Shown here one piece after another: positions 14,116-40,486 of a stretch of DNA of 64,000 nucleotides. Each line of letters opens with the position of its first letter. Position 1 is the first letter of the stretch. A program made the position numbers and the translations under genes. Where the stretch lies: contig JAFQOO010000007.1 in assembly GCA_017403145.1 (NCBI GenBank), positions 206,889 through 270,888 on the forward strand, written 5' to 3'. This stretch comes from Clostridia bacterium (GTDB taxonomy: Bacteria; Bacillota; Clostridia; Christensenellales; DTU072). The notes beneath the pieces are model-generated. The model ran no database searches and was not told the DNA's origin. It saw nothing but the letters and a program-made list of their open reading frames with translations.

Positions 14116-15150
14116 ATGTCTATAATGCTAAATGAATTCTTGGCTGCACCCGAAGTTGTTAAGTCGGTTGCAAATGCAAATAAAAAGGTGATTGCAGAAA
14201 TCGCTAGGGAATTCAAAGAACGTGGAATTACTAATATCGCAACAGTCGCGAGAGGTACCAGTGATAGTGCTGCTACCTATTTTAAGTATATCGTGGAGGC
14301 TATAGGAGAAATTGTAGTTGCCAAGCTCTCACCTTCTATTACTACTGTATACGGCTCGAAGGTTAACCTAAAGAGCACCATGGTTATAGCCATTTCTCAA
14401 AGTGGTATGTCTACCGACTCGGTTATGGTACTACAATCTGCTAAAGAAACGGGCGCTCTTACCGTTGCTGTAACAAACAACCCCGAAAGCGACCTTGCAA
14501 AAGTAGCCGATTATCATATCGATTTACAAGCGGGTGTAGAACAAAGCGTATATGCTACCAAGACCTATCTTGCAGAAATGGTTGCAATGTTTATGCTTTC
14601 TAACGCACTCAGCTCGGTTACCGCTAAAATGAACGTAATGGAACTACCCCAAATTTTACGTGCGTTTATAGATGAGAATACCGATTTACTAAAAGCCTTT
14701 GCTGAGGAAACCAAAGATTGCATCAACGGTGTAGTATTGACTCGTGGTTTGTTGCAAAGTGTAGCGAGCGAGCTTTCCTTGAAGATTATGGATACTTGTC
14801 GTACAATGTCCAATTATTTCTCCACCTCGGAGTTTTTGCACGGACCTATATCTATCGTAGAGGAAGGAACCAAAGTAATTTTGCTTGCTCCCGATAGCGA
14901 ATTTACCGACGAGTTTATTTCTATTACAACCCGACTAAGTTTGCTTGGAGCCGAGGTAATTGCTTTTACCGATATTCCCGAAGTAGCACGCATTGCATCC
15001 AAGTCCTTCACAATGCCTTCGTATAGAGGAATGACTCTTCCTTTCGTATATGCTCTAGCAAGCGAGCTCTACGTTGTTTACGTAGCGGAAGCAAAGGGAA
15101 TCAACGTGGATTGTCCCCGCAATCGCAAGAAAATCACCATCACGAAATAG
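14116..15150 (+). CDS. SIS-domain sugar-phosphate protein, NagB-II/GlmS-isomerase type
   Basis: 344 aa made of two SIS (sugar isomerase) domains with no glutaminase domain. First domain: ARGTSDSAATYFKY near residue 45 and SQSGMSTDS near residue 95. Second domain: LTRGLLQSVASELSLK near residue 214 and STSEFLHGP near residue 236, phrasing shared with GlmS isomerase domains, AgaS and the NagB-II glucosamine-6-phosphate deaminases. Deamination or isomerisation of an amino-sugar phosphate is the likely role, but the substrate is not fixed by sequence. GAGAGG precedes the ATG. The gene converges on nagB, the unrelated classical glucosamine-6-phosphate deaminase, which fits amino-sugar metabolism. 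Confidence 0.82.
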   Translation: MSIMLNEFLAAPEVVKSVANANKKVIAEIAREFKERGITNIATVARGTSDSAATYFKYIVEAIGEIVVAKLSPSITTVYGSKVNLKSTMVIAISQSGMSTDSVMVLQSAKETGALTVAVTNNPESDLAKVADYHIDLQAGVEQSVYATKTYLAEMVAMFMLSNALSSVTAKMNVMELPQILRAFIDENTDLLKAFAEETKDCINGVVLTRGLLQSVASELSLKIMDTCRTMSNYFSTSEFLHGPISIVEEGTKVILLAPDSEFTDEFISITTRLSLLGAEVIAFTDIPEVARIASKSFTMPSYRGMTLPFVYALASELYVVYVAEAKGINVDCPRNRKKITITK

Positions 15151-25792: not shown

Positions 25793-25840
25793 AACAAAGT
25801 TTAGTTCCTTTAGCATATATTATTGCTATAGAGGAGCGCT

Positions 25841-27814
25841 ATGTATTTTGGCACCGACGGAATTAGAGCAAAACAAGACTTTTTTACCGACGAATTTTTA
25901 GAAAGATTTGCTTCCGCTTTGTTTTATAAGCTAGGTAAAGGTAAAGTTTGCGTGGGCAGGGATACTCGCGTTAGTGGAGAGCGTATAGTAGAAAAACTAA
26001 GCGTTTATCTTTTGCAGTATGGCATAAATATATTTGACTGTGGCATATTGCCCACACCCGCGTTGGCTTATTTGACAAAAAAGAATGGTTGCGATTTGGG
26101 GATAATGATATCCGCTAGTCATAACCCGCCCGAATATAACGGAATAAAGCTTTTTTCGGGCTGTGGAGCCAAATTGAGCAAAGCGTGGGAAAATGCTTTG
26201 GAAGAAGAACTTTTGCGCCCTGCTGCCCCTAAAAAGGCGCGAGAGGGCAAAATTTGTAGCGTTTGTAGCGTTGAATATGAAAAATATGTAACCGATATTT
26301 TTAACGAAAGGCTAGTAGGCACCCGCGTGTTGTTAGACGCTTGTTACGGAGCGACCGCATTGATTGCAAAAAGAATTTTCGAAGCCCTAGGTTGCAGAGT
26401 AACTACAATCAACGACGAATATATCGGTCAAAGGATAAACGTAAATTGCGGTGCCACATGTTTGGAGCAGTTGACAAAATGCGAAAAAGAGGGCGAATAC
26501 GATATTGTCTTTGCCTATGATGGTGATGGGGATAGAGTGATTTGCATAAAAAACGGTAGGGTGCTTAACGGGGACCATATTGCTTATGCCTATGCGAACT
26601 ATATGGATTTAAAAGGTCAATTATCGCCCAGAGTAGTGGTAGGCACGTTAAATTCGAATTTGGGGCTGGAAAAAGCACTCGACAACAAAGAGATAAAACT
26701 CGTTCGCGCTATGGTGGGGGATAGGAACGTCTACGAAGCGATGAAAAATTGCGGTGCAAAGGTGGGCGGAGAAAGTAGCGGACACGTTATTTTCGATGGC
26801 TACGGAGATACGGGCGACGGAATTTTAACTTCTCTTATCGTTTGCCTTATGGATAAAGAAAGGGGTATTCTAAATCTAATCGATATGGTAGATTATCCCC
26901 TAGAGGAATGCTTTATACTAGCTAGTGAAAGGGATAAAAAGGTTTTCGAACAATCGCAAGCGATAAAAGAAAAAATATCGAGAATGGAAAAAGAGGGCGT
27001 AAGAGCGGTGGTAAGAGCAAGTGGCACCGAACCTAAAATTCGCATACTCGTAGAAGCCGAGCAATACGAAACAGCGAGAGAAAAGGCAAACGAAATCAAA
27101 GAATTTATAAGTTCGATAATATTTGATAAAAGCGAAAAAGAGCATACTAAAAATAGCAATTTAGGTATCCAAAGTGCGATATTTAAGAAAGCGAACTACG
27201 ATTTATTGATAAAAGAAGGCGTAAGTATACTTGCTCCCGACCTCACCTTTATAGAAGAGGGCGTTAGCGTGGGCAGGGGTAGCGTTATATATCCTTTTAA
27301 CGTTATACGCGGTAATACTCGAATAGGTAAGAACGTTACGATATATTCTTACTGCGACATAACCGACACTATAATAGGCGACGGGGTTGACGTTCGTTCG
27401 AGTTATACCATTCAAGCGGTAATAGGCGAGCAGTCCACCGTGGGGCCCTTTGCCACGTTACGTAAAGGTGCGATAATCGGCAAGGGTTGCAGAATAGGCG
27501 ATTACGTAGAAGTGAAGAACTCGGTGCTGGGCGACGGGGTAAAGTCGGCGCATTTAAGCTATATCGGTGATGCTAGTATAGGTGCTAGAACAAACGTGGG
27601 ATGCGGTACCGTTTTTGCCAACTATAATGGTAAAATAAAGCGCAAAACCGAGGTAGGCGAAGGGGTGTTTATAGGATGCAATTCCAACCTTATTGCTCCT
27701 CTAAAAATAGGGGATAACTCGTACATTGCGGGTGGCTCTACCATTACCGAAGATATAGAGAGCAACAAATTCGTTATAGCGCGCACCTCTCAAAAGACGA
27801 CGGAAAAACGATAA
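25841..27814 (+). CDS. glmM: Fused phosphoglucosamine mutase / glucosamine-1-phosphate N-acetyltransferase (GlmM-GlmU C-terminal)
   Basis: 657 aa with two complete enzyme domains. Residues 1 to about 425 are GlmM: FGTDGIR at the start, phosphoserine loop SASHNP with catalytic Ser93, metal loop DGDGDR near 227, GGESSGH near 308, phosphate-binding RASGTEPK near 390. After a Lys/Glu/Ser linker (about 427-450) the chain becomes the left-handed beta-helix acetyltransferase half of GlmU: GPFATLRKGA, VEVKNS, the catalytic His in AHLSYIGD, NVGCGT, NYNGK and GCNSNLIAP. The uridylyltransferase half of GlmU is absent. One chain would therefore turn glucosamine-6-P into N-acetylglucosamine-1-P for peptidoglycan precursors; the final UTP step must come from elsewhere. 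The frame is continuous and GAGGAG precedes the ATG. Confidence 0.93.
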   Translation: MYFGTDGIRAKQDFFTDEFLERFASALFYKLGKGKVCVGRDTRVSGERIVEKLSVYLLQYGINIFDCGILPTPALAYLTKKNGCDLGIMISASHNPPEYNGIKLFSGCGAKLSKAWENALEEELLRPAAPKKAREGKICSVCSVEYEKYVTDIFNERLVGTRVLLDACYGATALIAKRIFEALGCRVTTINDEYIGQRINVNCGATCLEQLTKCEKEGEYDIVFAYDGDGDRVICIKNGRVLNGDHIAYAYANYMDLKGQLSPRVVVGTLNSNLGLEKALDNKEIKLVRAMVGDRNVYEAMKNCGAKVGGESSGHVIFDGYGDTGDGILTSLIVCLMDKERGILNLIDMVDYPLEECFILASERDKKVFEQSQAIKEKISRMEKEGVRAVVRASGTEPKIRILVEAEQYETAREKANEIKEFISSIIFDKSEKEHTKNSNLGIQSAIFKKANYDLLIKEGVSILAPDLTFIEEGVSVGRGSVIYPFNVIRGNTRIGKNVTIYSYCDITDTIIGDGVDVRSSYTIQAVIGEQSTVGPFATLRKGAIIGKGCRIGDYVEVKNSVLGDGVKSAHLSYIGDASIGARTNVGCGTVFANYNGKIKRKTEVGEGVFIGCNSNLIAPLKIGDNSYIAGGSTITEDIESNKFVIARTSQKTTEKR

Positions 27815-27949: not shown

Positions 27950-30900
27950 ATGGCAAAATTAAGAGTAACAGGTAAACGTTTTTCCCTTAACGGGATGTTA
28001 GGCATCACTTTGATAGCCGTTTTAGTCGTAGCAGTCGTATCGTTAGTTGCAGCTGCGGTAATTCTTCCTAAATATGCGGAAGTTACAGACCACGAAACAC
28101 CGTCGGTCGTTGCTATCGTTGCGCCCGATAACGGGCTTATTTCGATAGGGGCAGACCCTTCGCAAGTTTTCGTTACCGTCAAGTATAGCGACGGTTCTTC
28201 TCAACAAGTAGCGCTTTCCGAGCTTGTAGTTACCGGTCTCGACACAAGTACCGAGGGCACTCTTGATGGAGTCGTTTTAGATTACGGTGGCTTTAAACAA
28301 ACGGTTTCCTTTAACGTTGTTCCTACGGAGTTACAAATAGAATACGTTGCATCTACCGGTGGTAGAATTGATGGTGATGCTATACAAAGTATCACTGCCG
28401 GCGCAGATGCTACTCGCGTTGAAGCTATAGCCGACGAAGGCTACTATTTTGCTGGTTGGAGTGATGGCGACGTCAATGCAAGTCGTTTGGATAAACAGGT
28501 TTCCAAGAGTATGCGTCTTATCGCTAAGTTCGAAAAATTGCGTTATACCGTCGTATTCTATTATCCCGACGGCACTACCGCAAGAGAAGAAATAGTTGCT
28601 TATAACGAAGCACCTCTCCGCGTACCTCGTCCCGACGAGCATAATATGGAAATGTATGGATATCGTTTTATCGGTTGGGACGTGGATTATACCCATATTA
28701 CCAAAGATACCAACATTTACCCAATGTTCGAAAAGTATTCGGCTGACTTCCATATCGAGTACACCATCGACGGAGAAGGTAACGTACTAGGCACCTCCGA
28801 CGCATTGGAATACTACGAGAACGATGAGCTTGCAACGGTTCGCGTTAAGCCCACCGGCGCAAGTCAAGACTATACCTTTACGGGTTGGTCGGTTTACGAC
28901 GTGGATTTGCAAGCTTGGATAAGCCTCGAGCCCGAAATGAACGGTGGTAAACTCGTTAGAGTAGGGGTTAACCACGCTATAGAATTTTTATCTACGCGCA
29001 CGGGCACGTCTAACGAACATATTTTGAGCTTTACTCCCGACGAAAACGTCGATGATATTTACGTAAAGGCTCATTTCGTATACAACAGCAGTACCATCAC
29101 CTTTACCAATATGAATAACGAAGCTCGCGCTCCGTTGACTATCGATTATAAAACTCCTATCGGCAACCTATTCGACGTAGAAGACCTAACCTATCTATCG
29201 ACTCTCGGTTACTCCTTTAAAGGTTGGTATGCAAATGGTGGCGAAGTTAAAGAAAACGGTGCACCCGTACTCGTAACCAACGACACCAAGTTTACCCAAC
29301 CCACCGAGCTTGTAGCATATTGGGAAAAGGAAATCTTTACCGCAGTATTCCTCAAGGGCGATAACCAAAGCATATCCTTTACCGACCCCTCGCAAGGTTA
29401 CGTTGAAAACTTCGACGGACAAACGGGTGTAAACGGTAGAGTTGTTACCGCATACTTCCAAGACAATCTTGCAGGTGCGGTTAGTGGAGCATTCCCCGAA
29501 GAAATTCCCGTTAAAGAAAACTATACCTTCAAGGGCTGGTATTTGGCAGATGCCGATAGACTACCCACCTCTAAGGTAGTAGATAAAACCTTCAAACTCG
29601 AAAAGCCCGTTGTTTACATAGTTCCCGTATTTGAAGAAAATACCAAAGCCCTTACCGTTTCCATAAAGGGTTCGGGTTCTATTTATACTCTAATCGATGC
29701 CGGCAACGGTCTATATAATGAAAGAAGTATATCCAACAGAATCGATATGCCCGTTACCAAGAACTACAACGTACGTATTCGTCCTAGCGAAGGATACGCG
29801 CTTTCCGCAGTTACCGTAAACGGAACCAGAACTACAGGTACCGACCTTGCGGGCGTAGACGGATATTACGATATCACTATCGAATCAATAATAAGTACCG
29901 ATTATCTAATCACCGCCGAGTTTACTCTAACCGAGTTTAACGTTTCTATCACCAATGGTACAGGTGTTACGAATAACGGTACTATCACCTATGGACTACT
30001 AGGCACTAAGGATACCCAAGAGTCCAAGCAAGAAAACGTTATCACCGCTGTAAACTATGGTTCGGGATTGTCTATTGAAATCAACCCCGATAATGGTTCC
30101 GATAATAGTAAGAAATATTATATTTCTTCGGTATCTCTAAACGGTATCAACCTAGAAGTTCCCGCGGAATCCATTTACTATAACTTGGTAATCGAAAATA
30201 TAACCGAAAACCAAAACGTAGTTATTACCTATCGTGAATTCCGTTATCGCGTAACTTTGCCCGAAGAGAGTGACGAAGGCAGTATGGTTGCGCTAGCAGG
30301 TACGATTGAATATGCAAGAGGGGACACTCCCGAATTTATTATCCAAGCAAAAGAGGGATACTATATCCGTAGAGTTACCGCTAACGGTACCATAATTGAC
30401 CCCTATATTTCAGCAAAGGGCTACACCGTTCTTTCACTAGAGGTAAACGGAGCTGACTACGACGGAAGCTCTAACGATTATAGAGTTACCGAAATGGAAC
30501 TTATGATTGGCTTTGAAGAAGGCACTACCAAACACGGTATCGAAAAAGACGTCGTATTCGTTGTAGAATATGCAAAACTCTATTATAACGTAACCACATC
30601 TTACGAAGGTATTGGTACGGTAGCATCACCCTTTACCGCAACCTATGGTTCATCATACCAAGTAAAAGCAGAAACCTCTAGCGGATACTACGTATACTCA
30701 CATATCGTTAATGGTGTAGAGTATACCTACGACGACGTTCAAACCGCACGTGAGTTTAATATCGAAAGTATCAATAGGGACTACGATATCAAGTTCGTAT
30801 TCAAGAGAACCACCTATTTCGTACGCTTCGTTGATGAAAACGGATATGCTTCCGTAACCTTTGGCGAACAAACCATAAATCTAGTAAAAGGCGAGGGTTA

Positions 30901-33900
30901 TACCTTTAGTGATATAGAGCACGCAACTACCGCTTATTTCGATATCAACACGAAAGAAGGCTACTATATAAATAAGATTGCAATAAGCTCTAACGCAGGT
31001 GATAGCTACGACGAGGTTACCAACTTCCTAGCAAGAAGCCACGTTGTAACTCTAAGCAACGTTAAAGCAAGTTATACCATCGAAATTGATTGCTTGCCCA
31101 TCAATATGGATTATAAGGTATATTTGATTAACAAAGCTACCAACGAAGTATTCATCAATAGTACGATTGTTAGTGGTAATAGCTATTCCTCTAACGTAGC
31201 TTTCGGCGGAGAAATCAACGTTAACGTTACTCCCGACTACGGTTACGTTTTGGAACTTGATAACGTTACCATCAAGAATAAAGACTTGAGAGATACCTAT
31301 TACTATCTACCTCTAGAAAGCGAATATGAAGAAGTCGAAAGTAACGGATATTACTCGATACTAACCTCTACCGACTTGTTGGGTAACGAAGTATTGACGT
31401 TATTCGTTTACGACGTAAAAACCATCGTTGACATTTATATCTACTTTGAAGAAGACGATGAAGATGCTTCTAGTAACGTACTAAATTACACCACCGAAGG
31501 AAATGGTTCTCTTGTTGCAACCAAGAAAGACGGAACCGCAATCGCTTCCGGAAGCACCCTAGAGAATAATACCGAAGTAAAATTCGAGTTAAATCCCCAA
31601 GTAGGCAATACCTTGAAAGCCCTTATCATAAACGGACAAGAAGTGGTCGTTGCCGATAGAATTTATACTCTCACCGTTAGAGAAGACCTAGACGTATGCG
31701 CTGTATTTGACGAAACTCATTATATCGTTACCATTCAAGGTGATACTCCCAACGGCATTATTGCAACCGACAAGAGCTTGATACCTGCAGGAACCTCCTT
31801 CAATTTGAGATTAACTCCCGTAGACGGTTACTACGTTCGCGATTGCTCCATTACAGTTGAAGGTTCCAGCATAATCTATCAACCCTTCTCCGGCGATACC
31901 GCGCCCGGAGTCAAGGACTATGAGTTCAAGGGCGAAAACGTAACCGGTAACGTTACTATTACCGCTCAATTTGCGCCTATCAAGTATTCGTTGGTATACA
32001 CTCACACCGCTAACGGTTCTTTGAGTGGCGTAGGTACCACGGGCGACTTGGAAGTTTACTATGGCGAAACCAAGAGCATCGATATTAACGCAAACGATGG
32101 TTACTATATTAGTGATATCATCCTTAACGGAGAATCCATATCGGTAAAGACCTTGCTAGGTACTCCCATTGCAACGGGTGAATACGTTTCCGGTAAATTG
32201 CAAATAGACGTTTCCGGCGACGTATCTTTGGACGTTGTATTCTCGCCGATGGTTTATACCATTACCATTAACGAGTCCCTTGGCGGAACTACCCTAGTTA
32301 AGAAAGATAACAGCGCTTATCTACCCGCAAACGAAATCAAGCTTGGAGCAGGCGACGACGTTTCTATCAAGATGCAAGCCGAAGAGGGATATCATATTGC
32401 TTCTTTGGAAGTTCCCGGTAGAGAAATAGACGATTGGAAGCAAGGTAACGTATCTGCTAACGACCTTAACCAAATTTTCTATAATCTTGGAACAGTAAAT
32501 GGTAACATTACCGTTATTGTCAAGTATGCAATCAACGAATATCAAATCAAGGTTAACGCAACCAACGCTAGCCCCAACTTTAGTGCTATAGACGTTGATA
32601 GCAGTACCTTTGGCGTAATTACCGTTAATGGTTCAGCTCCCGACGACGATAAATATTACACTCACGGTAGCAACGTCAAGTTCGTAGTTACCCCCAGAAC
32701 CGCACGTGGATATTATATTGCTAAGTTCGAGCTACAATATATTGGCGACGACGGAAAACTAAAGAGTGAAATTATAAACTCTATAAACGAAAACGGTGGC
32801 TCATATATTCTAAGAGGCATTTCTAGAAATATTCTTGCTGTTAACGTAGAGTTCAAGAGACGTACTTATTCCTATTCACAAAGCTTGACTATCGAAAGTG
32901 AAGGCGCTCCTTGGCTATCTAACGGAAGCTTGGTTGCAACCTTCAAGAATCCTTACTCTACCGCTCCCGTAGTTCTGGAAAATGGAATGTACGAGTATGG
33001 TTTGAGCTATACGATAAGTGCAATTCCCGGCGATGGATATAAGCTACTACCCGAAGAGAAAGACGAGAATGGTAACGTAATTCTTTCCAGCGGTGGCTTC
33101 AAGTTCAATGGCGAAAGCAGACTCTCATCGGTAAGAAACAACCTCTACGTAGGTACAGTAACTTCCGATATGGACTTCGACGTAGTATACGTAATCGAAA
33201 CCTATACCGTAGATATGATTGCAAGTAGTGGTGGTAGTTATGCTATATACGATATAGATAACACTCTACTATGGATGCCCGGTATAACCATTCTAGACGA
33301 AGCTCCCGAAGATTGGGATATCGAAAACCAAGGATATTGGACTTTGAAGGAGCGTCAAACTCTCTCCGGCACAATTTGGGCAACGGAAAATGGTTTGAAA
33401 GTTACTTATGGTACAGAGCTAATATTCTCTGCAACTCCCGATACGAGCATTGGACATAGAATAACCACATTTAGAATAAATAACGTAAACCGCACCATAC
33501 AAAACGAAGATGCGTTGATGCGCGTAACCAACGTTATTACCAAAGATACTCTATGCGAAATTCTGTTTACCGTACATACCTATACTATTAAGGTAAACAC
33601 CTTTACCGGTGGCTTGGCACAACTTTCCACCTCTACCGTTGAATGGAACAATAGCTTGACCATCAAGCTACTAATCAACCGCGGTTACGTTATGAGTAGC
33701 GTTACCGTAAACGGTGAAGACAAGAGTGCTATTGCATACGCTCTTGAAGAATATGGTATTTATACCGAAGCCCACGTACATAACGATTGGGATATCGTAA
33801 TTACTCTAGCCAACAAAGAGTATGATATTACCTTTAGTGGCGACTATGCTACAACCTACGAGGTTATGCAAAACGGCGAAGTAGCAAAGAGAATTAGTGC

Positions 33901-36900
33901 AGTTAGTGGCGTTATCATTAACGAAAACGTTATTGGTAAGAATATGCGCTCCTACTACACCAACGAAGCCGATTGCTTCTCCGACGATGGCAGACTTCTC
34001 AATAGGGCTGTATTTGCAGACAAACTAACACTCGTTCTAACCGCTCCTAACGGATATAGAATTACATCTGTATTCATTACTATGGATAACGATGGTGGCG
34101 TAGTATCCAACCTTGTACTTGGCGAAAGCGGACTAGATGCCGACGATGGTAGTGGTAGACGTACCTTCACCATACCTAGTATGACGGGTAACGTTGTTAT
34201 CAACGTAACCTATGCTATCAAGCAATATACCGTTGAATACCTAATGGCAAGCGGTGGTCAATACGAATCTACCGGTATCACTCTGGTAAGCCACCACGAG
34301 TTGTTTACAATAAACTTGATTTCTAATGCAGGCTTCTATCTATCCAGCCTGAATATTAACGGAAGAAATATTCCTACCGTTTACACTAAGGATGGTATGC
34401 GTTATCAATACACCACTACCACCAAGGTATCTAACGTAGATAAGCTACTTGAAATCGACGATACTTTGGTAAATGGCGAAAACAAGATAACCATTCTACC
34501 CACATATGAAAAGCAAAAGTTCAACGTAATATTCTTTGTTAACAACCAACAAATCACCAATTTGTATCAAGACGATACGTTGGGACTAACGCTAACAAAT
34601 AACGAGCTCGTCTATGATGAGGCAATCCCCTCAACCATTATGCACGACCTCAGAGACGGATACTCCATTACCAATATTGCATTCTACAATATGCCCAAGG
34701 CAAACCAACTAGCAACCTACTATAACTTTATGCTAGAAGGTACCGCCGACCGCAACTATAACTTGTTTACTCCCAAGGCGGAAAGTCTTGCTGTTAAACT
34801 TGACGAAGCAATTATTTCTATGATGGATTTCCATTCGTCCTCTAGAAACGTAGTTCGTATTTACTACACCACCGCTATCGACGAGTACGATGCAAATACA
34901 AGTATGTATTTGGTACAAGGCGTAACCGAAAACGGTAGGGCAGTAAATAAGGGTAATGCAATAGAAAGCAGCGCAGTTCCCACCGTTGCAGGTAAGAAAG
35001 CATTTACTCTAAAAGCAACCTTCGACGATAATAAAGACGTTGTAAGACACGAGTATGGTACCGAAGCAACCATAACCGTAAATATTCCTTCAACCAGCAT
35101 AAACAGCTATTCCTTCCAAGGATTCCAAGAGTACAAGAACGGTGTTTGGTCCTACGTAACCCACGACCCCGAAAACAGCGGAATAACCTTGCAATCCAAC
35201 GGACAAGTATTGCGCTATACAATGACCTCAACACGTACTTTCAGAGCGGTATTCTTCCGTGTTTACGAAATAACGGTAGAAGTTCACCCCGAATACAAGT
35301 ACTACGAAGGCTCGTTTGCAAACAACGACCCCTCTAGAATGAGATATCGTCAATACGCAAGCTTGACTGCTACTGCAACCTACTCACAAAACTCCGATAC
35401 CGGCGTAATTATGCCCAACATAGTAGGCATTTCCGAAACGCTCAACGATACCGATGGCGTAAACGATGCAAGCTATACCTATAGAGTTTTGAGTGGCGCA
35501 CGTTTGGTTCTCCGTGGTAGTGATAGCATTAACGTGAATGCAACTAGAGGTTACAGCTACTCCGTAATCACCTATGAAAACGGAAAGAAAGTACAACGCG
35601 ACGATGGTTATAATGCAGGCGTTGAAACCCTAGAAGATAGATTGGTTTACGCATACTTTAATAACGTTATGTACGTAAGCTTCGCTATGGAAACCGTTGG
35701 TTCAACCGTAAATAGCGAAGGTGGTACGGTAACCTATGCTAAAGATGGCGCGGCAGTAGGTAGCTTGTCTAACAACTCGCTAACTATGAATCCCAACCAA
35801 ACCTTGACTATCACAATAGTTCCCAAGGCGAACTATAGATTTGATAGCATAATGGAATTGTTACCTCTAGCAACTCCCGATGCACAAGGCTTTAGACAAT
35901 ATAGCAACACCTATAGTCCTTTGAGCTCCACAGCAGATGGTAGCATTCAAATAACCTACTACAAGCCCAATATGGAAGTTATAGAGGACCTATCAGAGTA
36001 TGATGGTAGAATAGGTACCGTAATAGTTACCATAAACAACTTGTGCGAAAACTCCATATTCAAGATTAGATTCTGGAAGCAAATTGAGGTTAGAAGTAGC
36101 GTAAGCATCATAACCGACGAAGCTGACGAGAACTTCAGGTTGGGTTATGAAGTCAAGTTGAATGAAGATGTATCCTCTAAAGACGGATTGTACGATTATA
36201 ACTCCAACCTATTCTACGACATTCAATTTGGTCTATACGAGCCCATCTTCTCCGGCTTCTCCAGATACTATCAATTCGTAGGATACTTTGTAAATGGTAT
36301 CAACTCGTACACGCAACTAGTACAAAACTATCCCTCCACCTACGAAGGAAGCTTCGTACTAAACGACCTAGATAACCTATCTAATGGTGTAAACATCATA
36401 GAAAAGACCACGATTAACGCCGGTGTTGCAACGACGACCTTCTACGTAGAAATCGTTGCAAGGTTTATCCCCGTTTATAACGTCGTTGTCGAAAACGAAT
36501 ACCTTGATAACGGTGATTATTTGAACCCCGGTCAAATAACCGCGTCGGCTATTATGTACGACGAAGCATTGACTCAATACTTTACTTCTTCGTCGAACGT
36601 GGAACCCAAACTTGGTCAAAACGTATCCTATAACACCGATATGTCCTTCCAAATGCTTGGTAAGATTAACACCATAGATACCTCTAATAAGAACTCTGCC
36701 GATTCTAAATATAATACTTGGAACGACAACACTATAACCCTACATTGGGCTGGTGGCGAAGGTGCTTCCGATAGCTTTAGCTTTATTGCTTGGCAGTACT
36801 ACGCATTCAATAAGGAAACTAGCACGTTCGAGTGGAGAAACATTCCTTACGTTGACCCCAACTCACAAACCAACCTAGTAACCAAGGGAACCTACACCTT

Positions 36901-39900
36901 CCCCATATCTTGCTTGTTTAGTACAACCTATCCCGCATTCGTAAGCAATACCGGTTCACTTGCAGAAGCAGGCTTCTACTACAATGCGTCGGTATACGAT
37001 TATAATGGTAATTACACCTCCTTCAATACGATTAGCGCAATTAGAATAAGACCGCTATTCCAAAAGGTCGAAAACTTAACGCTAGTTAAATCTACCGCGT
37101 TGCACGACGAAACCATCTTCCTAGATGGTCAAGGCGATGCTGACCCCAAGATTAACAGCACCTCTCGTTCAAATGGTTACTTCAATTACTACACCGTTCA
37201 AACCATACTTCCCTCATCGGGCAGTAACTATCAATTTGCCGGTTGGTATATTACCGAAAATGGTAACGGAGGATATCAAGCTCTTGATAAACAAGCAACT
37301 GCAGAAGATTACGACAAGGTTGTTGAAGAAGACGGAACCACCTATTACTTGAAGACCGTAGAAATCCAAGACGTAAATGGTAATGGAACGGGCAATTATA
37401 TCTCATATAGCTATAACCCCATTACCCAACAAGCCAACGTTCTAATGGATGCTTCCTTCAAGATATATGCGCGCTACATACGTGTATATAATATAGATAT
37501 AATGGTTTCCAACGTATCGGGATTTGCAAAAGTACTTACCGATGCAATGCCCACCTTGAATTACTACAAGTGGGTTGACGGAGATTGGCAATTACAAGCC
37601 GAGCTTTCCGGCAATAGAATGATTAACATCACCGATGCTCGCGTTGGTAGCAAGATTAAGTTCACCTTGTCAACCAACTTCTCAGGTGATATAAACGATA
37701 CCACCCGCTTCAACCCGATGTTCGATAGATTTAGTGGTATAACCTCGGTTAACGAGAACAACGTTAACGTTTGGGATGGTGGCAGAGCTCCCGACTCAAC
37801 AAACTCTAACGTACCTAGCTTTGCTGAGTTGAACGGATATATACTCGGTGGTACTGCAAGCGATATGAGTGCTTACAATAGTGCTATTACGGGTATGGAA
37901 ATCATAATTACCGCAAACGACCAAAAGACCATCAACGTAAACTTTGAGTCCTATGGTTCATTGATACTACACAACGTATACGTAGGCTCTTCAATCAAGT
38001 TACCTAACGAGTTGGGCGAAATACTTTATAACGATAATACCGACTCGGTTGAACTCGCTTCCGATGCAAGCGGTAACGACGCATACTTTGTAAAGGATGG
38101 CGGAAAGGGCGACTATTATAACGGTGGTATAGTTGATGGTATTATTGCCATTAACAATATTCCTATCCTAGCTTCTCGTAGCTTCGATGGTAAGGTAAGC
38201 GGAGATTATGCAACTCGCTTGATAGACAACTCCAACGTTCTAGATAGCGATAACATTAGTATCGGTGTAAACTTTGATGGTTCCAAGATAACCAAGAAGA
38301 TACAACACGTTGCTTACTATGGCGAGGCAAGCTGGGAAGAATACGAATACGTGGACGGTACTTTGACTGCTGTACCTTATAGTGCGGTAAGCAAATACGA
38401 CTATCCCTTTGCAGATGGCGATAGCGTATCCGAAGCAGGCGATGGTTCCGCTTCTAAGCCCTTCAAGGTTGCTAACGTAGACCATTTGCGTAACATCGAT
38501 AATATCTACAAGGGCAATAATGGTACCTTCATTTATGGTCAAGAGGGCTCTACTACTTTACGTATACATTTCGAACAAGTAGCAGATATCAACTTGAACG
38601 AAACCAATAACGCATTGACTGCACCCTTGTGCTCTGCGTTCTATGGTAATAACGGAACTTATCATACCAACGGATTTAACGGTATCTACGATGGTAAGAA
38701 CTATAGTCTATACAACCTACAATTCGAATTACGTAACTCCAATATTACCGAGAACGTAGGTATCTTTAGTAAGATTTACCGCGGTGGCGTTGTAAAGAAC
38801 GTTGCTCTAGGTAGAGCTTCTATAAGCAGTAATGCAGTTAACGTTGGTGCTATTGCCGGTAACGTATTCGGCGGTACTATCGAAAACGTATACTATAAGG
38901 AAGTAGGTTCGCAAAGTATCAGCAATGGTATTAGCGGTTCCAACTTCGTAGGCGGTCTTGTTGGCGTTATAGCCGGTGAAAGCGAATCCGAAGGCGTAAT
39001 TAAAAACTCCAGCATAGCAAACTTCAATATTTCCGCATCGGTTGGTGGTAGTTATCTAGGACTTGGTAGCGACTACACCGGCGGTGCAGGTGGTATCGTT
39101 GGCTCAATAGGTAACTATGGTAGCGTTCAAAATAGCAATGGTGGCTATACCGTTAAGAACTTGACCATTTCTAGTGGTACCACTATGGGCTCCAATGGTA
39201 TGGGTGCAGGTGGTATTGCAGGTACCGTTCAAGCATATTCCAACAAGGCTGGACATACTGCAATTAAGGACGTTATCGTTATAGATACCCGTCTATCGAA
39301 CGAAAACCATAAGGTTGCAATAGGTGGTATCGTTGGTGCTGTAGGTGCTAATAGAATAATCGAAAATGCCGATTATAGTATTTCTAGTTCCGATATGACC
39401 ATTCGTTCGTATAGCGCCCCCGCAGGCTTTACCGAACCCACTTCGGGAGCAGATGGTAACTACCTATCCTATGGCGGTGGCGGTATCGCCGGATATAATA
39501 ACGGAACGATAAACAATTCCGACGTAACGACTGCAGTAGGCTATACCTTGAGTTTAACCGGCTCTATGGTTGGTGGCGCAGTTGGTGTAAACCTCGGTAC
39601 AGTATATAATTCGAGAGTAACTGCCAAGATGTACACCTCTCGTCAAATGAACAATGCTTACGAAGGCGGTACTTATGGTGGTATAATCGGTTACAATATG
39701 GGCAAGTTGATTGCAAGTACCATAACCGGTTCTAAGAGTGCAACCGACGATTATAACCAAGAAACCGCTGCATACGAAGTAGTAACTAATGGTAACAGCG
39801 TATACGTTCCCACTGCAGGTAAGAATGGCTTGATGCACGGAGATGCCGGCGCAGATACCGCAACTATTTACGTAGGTGGTGTAGTAGGTTATAACATCGG

Positions 39901-40486
39901 TAGCGTAGAAAGCGTAACCAACAATGCTAAGATAATGGTAAATAGAAGGTCGAACGATACTATGACTAATAGTTCATACGTTGGTGCAATATGTGGCTTT
40001 AGCACAAACGATAACGTATCATCTTCGGGTAGCGCAATCGTTAAGTTCTTCCACTATATTTGGGTAGACCAAGCAACCGACGTGATGAATACGATGTACA
40101 CCTACGTGGGTAACCTAAAGGGTAACGCTATTGCGCAAGGCGGTGCTACAATGGGAAGCCTAAATGCGACGGTAGAATATATCGGTGGCGGTATCATTTA
40201 TAATCCCGCAAGTATCGAGGCAGGCTTCACTTGGGGCTTTGAAGGAACGGGATACTTGTCTGGTGCTGCAAACGTATATCTATACAATGCAAACACCGCC
40301 TCTGCAAGTTCCTATGCACCCGATTGGAACGTAAGCGGTACAATCGAAGCGGGCAAGGGAAGCGGAAAGATATATGCAGAAGATTGTAAGGAAGTTGGTG
40401 GCGGAATAGAAACGCTATGGAAGTCCACCTGGAACTACGAAGGAGCGCTCCGTTACGTAGCAGTTACCGCCGTAGCTAAACCTTAG
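27950..40486 (+). CDS. Giant InlB-repeat and GLUG-repeat surface protein
   Basis: 4178 aa in one uninterrupted frame. A signal-anchor helix lies at about 18-42. An Ig-like stretch follows at about 55-125 (VFVTVKYSDGSSQQV). From about 125 to 3450 are dozens of divergent InlB B-repeat / bacterial repeat units, recognised by GW cores and their phrasing (YYFAGWSDGD, YRFIGWDVD, YTFKGWYLAD, GYYISDIILNG, GYYIRRVTANG). From about 3500 to the end lies a GLUG-type beta-helix (VGAIAGNVFGG, GGIAGYNNGTINNS, GGVVGYNIGSV). There is no LPXTG or cell-wall-binding C-terminus, so anchoring is probably N-terminal. Such chains are typical of adhesion or cell-surface stalk functions; the ligand is unknown. It is a single-gene transcript between its own promoter and a strong terminator. 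Confidence 0.85.
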   Translation: MAKLRVTGKRFSLNGMLGITLIAVLVVAVVSLVAAAVILPKYAEVTDHETPSVVAIVAPDNGLISIGADPSQVFVTVKYSDGSSQQVALSELVVTGLDTSTEGTLDGVVLDYGGFKQTVSFNVVPTELQIEYVASTGGRIDGDAIQSITAGADATRVEAIADEGYYFAGWSDGDVNASRLDKQVSKSMRLIAKFEKLRYTVVFYYPDGTTAREEIVAYNEAPLRVPRPDEHNMEMYGYRFIGWDVDYTHITKDTNIYPMFEKYSADFHIEYTIDGEGNVLGTSDALEYYENDELATVRVKPTGASQDYTFTGWSVYDVDLQAWISLEPEMNGGKLVRVGVNHAIEFLSTRTGTSNEHILSFTPDENVDDIYVKAHFVYNSSTITFTNMNNEARAPLTIDYKTPIGNLFDVEDLTYLSTLGYSFKGWYANGGEVKENGAPVLVTNDTKFTQPTELVAYWEKEIFTAVFLKGDNQSISFTDPSQGYVENFDGQTGVNGRVVTAYFQDNLAGAVSGAFPEEIPVKENYTFKGWYLADADRLPTSKVVDKTFKLEKPVVYIVPVFEENTKALTVSIKGSGSIYTLIDAGNGLYNERSISNRIDMPVTKNYNVRIRPSEGYALSAVTVNGTRTTGTDLAGVDGYYDITIESIISTDYLITAEFTLTEFNVSITNGTGVTNNGTITYGLLGTKDTQESKQENVITAVNYGSGLSIEINPDNGSDNSKKYYISSVSLNGINLEVPAESIYYNLVIENITENQNVVITYREFRYRVTLPEESDEGSMVALAGTIEYARGDTPEFIIQAKEGYYIRRVTANGTIIDPYISAKGYTVLSLEVNGADYDGSSNDYRVTEMELMIGFEEGTTKHGIEKDVVFVVEYAKLYYNVTTSYEGIGTVASPFTATYGSSYQVKAETSSGYYVYSHIVNGVEYTYDDVQTAREFNIESINRDYDIKFVFKRTTYFVRFVDENGYASVTFGEQTINLVKGEGYTFSDIEHATTAYFDINTKEGYYINKIAISSNAGDSYDEVTNFLARSHVVTLSNVKASYTIEIDCLPINMDYKVYLINKATNEVFINSTIVSGNSYSSNVAFGGEINVNVTPDYGYVLELDNVTIKNKDLRDTYYYLPLESEYEEVESNGYYSILTSTDLLGNEVLTLFVYDVKTIVDIYIYFEEDDEDASSNVLNYTTEGNGSLVATKKDGTAIASGSTLENNTEVKFELNPQVGNTLKALIINGQEVVVADRIYTLTVREDLDVCAVFDETHYIVTIQGDTPNGIIATDKSLIPAGTSFNLRLTPVDGYYVRDCSITVEGSSIIYQPFSGDTAPGVKDYEFKGENVTGNVTITAQFAPIKYSLVYTHTANGSLSGVGTTGDLEVYYGETKSIDINANDGYYISDIILNGESISVKTLLGTPIATGEYVSGKLQIDVSGDVSLDVVFSPMVYTITINESLGGTTLVKKDNSAYLPANEIKLGAGDDVSIKMQAEEGYHIASLEVPGREIDDWKQGNVSANDLNQIFYNLGTVNGNITVIVKYAINEYQIKVNATNASPNFSAIDVDSSTFGVITVNGSAPDDDKYYTHGSNVKFVVTPRTARGYYIAKFELQYIGDDGKLKSEIINSINENGGSYILRGISRNILAVNVEFKRRTYSYSQSLTIESEGAPWLSNGSLVATFKNPYSTAPVVLENGMYEYGLSYTISAIPGDGYKLLPEEKDENGNVILSSGGFKFNGESRLSSVRNNLYVGTVTSDMDFDVVYVIETYTVDMIASSGGSYAIYDIDNTLLWMPGITILDEAPEDWDIENQGYWTLKERQTLSGTIWATENGLKVTYGTELIFSATPDTSIGHRITTFRINNVNRTIQNEDALMRVTNVITKDTLCEILFTVHTYTIKVNTFTGGLAQLSTSTVEWNNSLTIKLLINRGYVMSSVTVNGEDKSAIAYALEEYGIYTEAHVHNDWDIVITLANKEYDITFSGDYATTYEVMQNGEVAKRISAVSGVIINENVIGKNMRSYYTNEADCFSDDGRLLNRAVFADKLTLVLTAPNGYRITSVFITMDNDGGVVSNLVLGESGLDADDGSGRRTFTIPSMTGNVVINVTYAIKQYTVEYLMASGGQYESTGITLVSHHELFTINLISNAGFYLSSLNINGRNIPTVYTKDGMRYQYTTTTKVSNVDKLLEIDDTLVNGENKITILPTYEKQKFNVIFFVNNQQITNLYQDDTLGLTLTNNELVYDEAIPSTIMHDLRDGYSITNIAFYNMPKANQLATYYNFMLEGTADRNYNLFTPKAESLAVKLDEAIISMMDFHSSSRNVVRIYYTTAIDEYDANTSMYLVQGVTENGRAVNKGNAIESSAVPTVAGKKAFTLKATFDDNKDVVRHEYGTEATITVNIPSTSINSYSFQGFQEYKNGVWSYVTHDPENSGITLQSNGQVLRYTMTSTRTFRAVFFRVYEITVEVHPEYKYYEGSFANNDPSRMRYRQYASLTATATYSQNSDTGVIMPNIVGISETLNDTDGVNDASYTYRVLSGARLVLRGSDSINVNATRGYSYSVITYENGKKVQRDDGYNAGVETLEDRLVYAYFNNVMYVSFAMETVGSTVNSEGGTVTYAKDGAAVGSLSNNSLTMNPNQTLTITIVPKANYRFDSIMELLPLATPDAQGFRQYSNTYSPLSSTADGSIQITYYKPNMEVIEDLSEYDGRIGTVIVTINNLCENSIFKIRFWKQIEVRSSVSIITDEADENFRLGYEVKLNEDVSSKDGLYDYNSNLFYDIQFGLYEPIFSGFSRYYQFVGYFVNGINSYTQLVQNYPSTYEGSFVLNDLDNLSNGVNIIEKTTINAGVATTTFYVEIVARFIPVYNVVVENEYLDNGDYLNPGQITASAIMYDEALTQYFTSSSNVEPKLGQNVSYNTDMSFQMLGKINTIDTSNKNSADSKYNTWNDNTITLHWAGGEGASDSFSFIAWQYYAFNKETSTFEWRNIPYVDPNSQTNLVTKGTYTFPISCLFSTTYPAFVSNTGSLAEAGFYYNASVYDYNGNYTSFNTISAIRIRPLFQKVENLTLVKSTALHDETIFLDGQGDADPKINSTSRSNGYFNYYTVQTILPSSGSNYQFAGWYITENGNGGYQALDKQATAEDYDKVVEEDGTTYYLKTVEIQDVNGNGTGNYISYSYNPITQQANVLMDASFKIYARYIRVYNIDIMVSNVSGFAKVLTDAMPTLNYYKWVDGDWQLQAELSGNRMINITDARVGSKIKFTLSTNFSGDINDTTRFNPMFDRFSGITSVNENNVNVWDGGRAPDSTNSNVPSFAELNGYILGGTASDMSAYNSAITGMEIIITANDQKTINVNFESYGSLILHNVYVGSSIKLPNELGEILYNDNTDSVELASDASGNDAYFVKDGGKGDYYNGGIVDGIIAINNIPILASRSFDGKVSGDYATRLIDNSNVLDSDNISIGVNFDGSKITKKIQHVAYYGEASWEEYEYVDGTLTAVPYSAVSKYDYPFADGDSVSEAGDGSASKPFKVANVDHLRNIDNIYKGNNGTFIYGQEGSTTLRIHFEQVADINLNETNNALTAPLCSAFYGNNGTYHTNGFNGIYDGKNYSLYNLQFELRNSNITENVGIFSKIYRGGVVKNVALGRASISSNAVNVGAIAGNVFGGTIENVYYKEVGSQSISNGISGSNFVGGLVGVIAGESESEGVIKNSSIANFNISASVGGSYLGLGSDYTGGAGGIVGSIGNYGSVQNSNGGYTVKNLTISSGTTMGSNGMGAGGIAGTVQAYSNKAGHTAIKDVIVIDTRLSNENHKVAIGGIVGAVGANRIIENADYSISSSDMTIRSYSAPAGFTEPTSGADGNYLSYGGGGIAGYNNGTINNSDVTTAVGYTLSLTGSMVGGAVGVNLGTVYNSRVTAKMYTSRQMNNAYEGGTYGGIIGYNMGKLIASTITGSKSATDDYNQETAAYEVVTNGNSVYVPTAGKNGLMHGDAGADTATIYVGGVVGYNIGSVESVTNNAKIMVNRRSNDTMTNSSYVGAICGFSTNDNVSSSGSAIVKFFHYIWVDQATDVMNTMYTYVGNLKGNAIAQGGATMGSLNATVEYIGGGIIYNPASIEAGFTWGFEGTGYLSGAANVYLYNANTASASSYAPDWNVSGTIEAGKGSGKIYAEDCKEVGGGIETLWKSTWNYEGALRYVAVTAVAKP

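Follow-up and report, generated by a model that had tools for sequence, protein, structure and literature searches.

GlmU, which is studied as a drug target, is usually said to link acetylation firmly to the formation of UDP-GlcNAc. One gene in the 64,000-nucleotide stretch of clostridial DNA analysed here (the window) raises the question of whether this link can be undone, as it joins the mutase GlmM to the acetyltransferase half of GlmU with no uridylyltransferase domain. Which came first, the fusion or the loss of the domain, and which enzyme then makes UDP-GlcNAc?

A mutase and an acetyltransferase in one reading frame

The first-pass annotation had proposed one continuous frame joining two enzymes: a complete GlmM, and a complete GlmU beta-helix with its catalytic motifs and without the uridylyltransferase domain. 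Both points hold. The reading frame of the window runs from the ATG at 25841 to the stop at 27814 and encodes 657 aa without internal stops; reading through the junction at 27130-27200, where a stop or frameshift was looked for, we found neither a stop nor a change of frame. The gene divides into the following features:

25831..25836, + strand: GAGGAG, a Shine-Dalgarno-like sequence read from the sequence 5′ of the ATG at 25841
25841..27814, + strand: glmM-glmU(C) fusion gene, 657 aa (open frame and domain matches)
25841..27112, + strand: GlmM (phosphoglucosamine mutase) domain, residues 1-424 (profile, structure and motif matches), with the phosphoserine loop SASHNP from S91, the metal loop DGDGDR at residues 227-232, the sugar loop GGESSGH at residues 309-315 and the phosphate loop RASGTEP at residues 392-398
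27113..27226, + strand: linker, residues 425-462, 38 residues (alignment, dN and pLDDT)
27227..27805, + strand: GlmU-type left-handed beta-helix acetyltransferase domain (LbH), residues 463-655 (profile and structure alignments)

When the fusion was sought in relatives, the same domain order in an uninterrupted frame was found in each of the 13 genus genomes (including G001-G012) and in one genome of a sister genus (G018), with 44-57% identity within the genus and 42-57% when G018 is included. The upstream neighbour of the fusion in the window is an MTA/SAH nucleosidase, and directly 3′ lies a gene (27950-40486, + strand) whose 4178-aa product matches an InlB-type B-repeat.

The N-terminal half carries all four PGM_PMM domains (I-IV, residues 2-420 in the profile search). 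TIGR01455 (glmM) was the top-scoring mutase model and was matched over its full length (residues 3-424 to model positions 1-441/442), although at 348.2 bits the score is below the cutoff of 447.55. Among solved structures the best matches are GlmM of B. subtilis (7ojr, 249 bits), S. aureus and B. anthracis, and a Foldseek search with the predicted model ranked GlmM structures first (B. anthracis GlmM 3pdk, TM 0.88 by target). The four-domain PGM/PMM fold and all four active-site loops (phosphoserine, DGDGDR, GGE.SGH and R.SGTEP) are present, and the loops are invariant in the alignment of 14 same-order fusions. Since the mutase half scores below the NCBIfam cutoff, its specificity for glucosamine-6-phosphate is assigned from the fusion partner and the motifs; this sub-cutoff score and the attached acetyltransferase set the protein apart from GlmM proper.

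In the C-terminal half, positions 231-444 of the glmU model (452 positions) match residues 443-655, while positions 1-230 are unmatched, and the whole protein scores 234.9 bits against TIGR01173 (GlmU), below the cutoff of 366.85. The helix aligns end to end with that of GlmU (S. aureus GlmU 9dqf also aligned to this half). R541, K559, H571, Y574, N585 and N594 align with R344, K362, H374, Y377, N388 and N397 of Mtb GlmU (3d8v), the substrate-binding and catalytic residues of GlmU, and the R, K, H, Y, N, N set is invariant in all 14 same-order fusions. What differs from GlmU is that the uridylyltransferase domain is missing and GlmM occupies its place.

Decay of the uridylyltransferase domain and fusions in both orders

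Among full-length GlmUs classed in the order, the nucleotide-binding motif of the N-domain is intact in 13 of 14; the full-length GlmU of G073 reads LAADDGAQM at this site, and a 408-aa GlmU-type protein in G060 reads LATGLTDRM. Many relatives encode proteins of 330-380 aa whose N-terminal 130-180 aa lack the nucleotide loop and keep the 'DTPL' region, and further relatives encode helix-only proteins of ~200-240 aa. Sequence profiles show that the 130-180 aa remnants are homologous to the GlmU N-domain: hhalign gave a probability of 95%, compared with 0.1-0.2% for five column-shuffled controls. The best matches to an AlphaFold2 model of a remnant protein are complete GlmU structures, a result that may be favoured by some full-length GlmU rows in the alignment behind the model.

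In the window's family, glmM is followed by a truncated glmU gene, and at five loci (L015, L017, L020, L021 and L026) the two overlap by 4 bases, so that a short insertion or deletion would be enough to join them. The helix gene of other families is located 5′ of glmM. The truncated GlmUs (330-420 aa, with a decayed N-domain) and helix-only proteins encoded beside glmM share with the fusion the acetyltransferase domain and the neighbourhood, but are polypeptides separate from GlmM; these genes are evidently the precursor state of the fusion. No GlmM-scale match to the fusion was found in family members G013, G014, G021, G022, G023, G026, G027, G032, G037 and G039, several of which are >90% complete. 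In sister genera the gene 5′ of glmM encodes a Polysacc_synt_2 (CapD/FlaA1-like) sugar-nucleotide enzyme (L015 38-1468, L017 20-1480, L021 23-1486).

Fusions of the reverse order, LbH-GlmM, occur in 11 genomes of the order that belong to other families (e.g. G041, G096, G175, G269 and G283). They hold the same two domains in one chain; however, GlmM-LbH and LbH-GlmM fall into separate clades both in the mutase tree and in the helix tree, which are quick searches with deep branches open in several places. Judging from these trees, the two architectures were fused independently. Six of the 11 reversed fusions, together with the adjacent gene pair of G131, have His instead of Arg at the glucosamine-1-phosphate site and the other five residues intact (L067, L068, L069, L070, L103, L104 and L105), a possible change of acceptor in the reversed fusions. 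Two genomes, G035 (L069) and G038 (L070), are labelled as the window's family, yet their fusion groups with the LbH-GlmM of another family, for which horizontal transfer, misclassification and contamination are alternative explanations.

Nucleotidyltransferase-helix-PGM/PMM fusions of ~750 aa, of the mannose-1-phosphate guanylyltransferase/phosphomannomutase type, similarly place a hexapeptide helix beside a PGM/PMM mutase in one chain, but they include a nucleotidyltransferase, and the helix they contain is of another kind than the GlmU acetyltransferase. Frames of 754-759 aa found in G054 and G056 may be of this type. In G041 we also noted a 603-aa protein (L064, 626-2437) with a sugar nucleotidyltransferase-like N-terminus and a CobD/HisC-like aminotransferase.

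Linker, selection and alternative explanations

The linker opens with the last part of GlmM's long C-terminal helix, and at its far end it retains a piece that resembles the linker helix preceding the GlmU beta-helix. In the AlphaFold2 monomer model the mutase is confident and the beta-helix moderately confident, with a break between them at residues 436-448, where the middle of the linker is predicted to be disordered (pLDDT <50). Values of dN are 0.14-0.47 for the linker, 0.05-0.31 for GlmM and 0.02-0.14 for LbH. Five pairs had a measurable dS, and their dN/dS values of 0.09-0.12 (GlmM) and 0.03-0.17 (LbH) show purifying selection on both halves.

Low dN/dS on both sides of the junction speaks against one alternative explanation, an artefact of assembly or binning or a missed stop or frameshift. 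The source assembly is indeed a draft of 17 contigs, but the fusion is internal to a 277-kb contig, and the relatives, with their uninterrupted frame in all 13 genus genomes and the sister-genus genome, already refute this explanation, whose probability we regard as negligible. We also find it very improbable, if not to the same degree, that the beta-helix half has lost its acetyltransferase activity and serves the mutase only as an oligomerisation or regulatory module. In favour of this reading, helix domains often have a role in the assembly of other nucleotidyltransferases (PMC11046441), and some reversed fusions are without one substrate-binding Arg. However, the six residues are unchanged in the window gene and all 14 same-order fusions, the helix is the best-conserved part in most pairs, and we found no second GlmU-type acetyltransferase in the source genome.

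A different matter is why the fusion was selected. The idea that the mutase hands glucosamine-1-phosphate directly to the acetyltransferase, active site to active site, draws on the fact that the fused steps are consecutive, on the repeated origin of opposite-order fusions, which makes joining seem favoured, and on engineered GlmM-GlmS and GalU-Pgm fusions, described as substrate channelling (PMC10933623), which likewise join neighbouring pathway steps, although they are man-made and combine other enzyme pairs. We consider it unlikely. Channelling had been suggested for this protein, but a built-in tunnel is not indicated: the linker is fast-evolving, poorly conserved and predicted to be disordered; domain orders of both kinds exist, the genes stay separate in most relatives, and the same facts are accounted for by co-expression and stoichiometry. 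Its flexibility suggests that the linker is a tether that keeps the two halves co-expressed and in constant ratio, rather than part of a tunnel; a proximity effect of fusing GlmM and the acetyltransferase is possible.

The UTP step and the meaning of the fusion

Our preferred reading, which we hold with high confidence on the strength of sequence comparisons, is that the window gene encodes a bifunctional GlmM-acetyltransferase that arose by loss of the UTP domain followed by in-frame fusion, and that a separate, non-GlmU enzyme performs the UTP step. From the domains, the motifs and their conservation we infer both activities: the N-terminal half would convert glucosamine-6-phosphate to glucosamine-1-phosphate, and the beta-helix at the C-terminus would use acetyl-CoA to convert glucosamine-1-phosphate to N-acetylglucosamine-1-phosphate, probably as a trimer like that of GlmU. 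The helix of GlmU is described as forming side-by-side trimers and as bearing the acetyltransferase activity itself (PMC11046441). The decay series, the gene order and the two opposite fusions suggest the course of events. The uridylyltransferase domain of GlmU would have become dispensable in the order, lost its motifs, shrunk and vanished, leaving an acetyltransferase gene that adjoins or overlaps glmM; this gene would then have been joined in frame to glmM, and the tether would guarantee co-expression and proximity. The first-pass proposal of a bifunctional GlmM/glucosamine-1-phosphate acetyltransferase with an uncoupled UTP step is thus retained as a prediction from sequence, but not the fusion as the cause of uncoupling: loss of the UTP domain before the fusion is most likely, because the separate helix genes of relatives already have a motif-less or missing domain. 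The repeated fusion of the pair argues for a benefit of keeping mutase and acetyltransferase together after loss of the uridylyltransferase.

MurA is present in all 13 genus genomes (above the curated cutoff in 10), which means that UDP-GlcNAc is evidently used and predicts a replacement UDP-GlcNAc pyrophosphorylase. A stand-alone GlmU N-domain, for which a search had been proposed, did not come to light: no N-domain with the LAAGxGTRM motif was found in the fusion, the rest of the genome or the 13-genome genus, where draft genomes limit claims of absence. The nucleotidyltransferases found in the source genome are GlgC, GlgD, GalU and IspDF, and those of the genus are GlgC and GlgD, plus one or two GalU-like proteins in the genomes where such proteins were detected; GalU was undetected in four of the 13 genomes (G002, G005, G010 and G011), two of which are >90% complete.

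Several other candidates were considered. The UAP1/UDPGP-type pyrophosphorylase family (PF01704) is absent from the genus and occurs in only 3 of 96 relatives, and PF02744, for GalT-type uridylyl transfer, is found in only 3 of the 13 genus genomes, the source genome included; neither was retained as a replacement. The alternative bacterial GlmU (NTP_transf_4) gave no matches in the genomes, with control genomes equally silent. Relatives encode a 231-241 aa nucleotidyltransferase resembling the N-terminal half of archaeal GlmU and MurU, which many of those with a decayed N-domain carry (231-239 aa at L059, L060, L062 and L065); on sequence similarity it is a candidate replacement uridylyltransferase in these relatives. 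Its neighbours (by eye, RNase J-like and SerC/SerA-like) give no pointer to amino sugars, and for the window's genus this protein was rejected since it is absent there.

Our simplest guess, and leading candidate, for UDP-GlcNAc synthesis in the genus is GalU. More broadly, we give about even chances to the proposal that the genus makes UDP-GlcNAc with an unrecognised pyrophosphorylase, either a re-specialised GalU or GlgC/GlgD or a member of an undescribed family; the recurrent loss of the uridylyltransferase domain in the order would then be what this replacement left behind.

At the other end of the pathway, full-length GlmS was not found in the genus, and the only GlmS-like protein in the source genome is encoded in the window:

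14116..15150, + strand: SIS-domain protein of 344 aa, placed between NagB-II deaminase and the GlmS isomerase half

It scores 197 bits for NagB-II and 161 bits for GlmS, both under the cutoffs. This protein may supply or consume the glucosamine-6-phosphate used by the fusion. Synthesis that depends on ammonia and the scavenging of amino sugars are two possible origins of this substrate.

The enzymes themselves are known; what we did not find described in the open-access literature, to which our search was confined (subscription literature lying outside its scope), are the GlmM-LbH architecture, the N-domain decay seen in many of the order's families and the pair of fusions with opposite domain order. 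In a gut-type bacterium two successive cell-wall sugar enzymes appear as one protein. Many families of a single bacterial order have given up the link between acetylation and the UTP step, and repeatedly, in either domain order, the acetyltransferase has become attached to the enzyme that acts before it. This provides a natural experiment on why pathway steps are fused, and it points to a concrete missing UTP enzyme in MurA-bearing bacteria.
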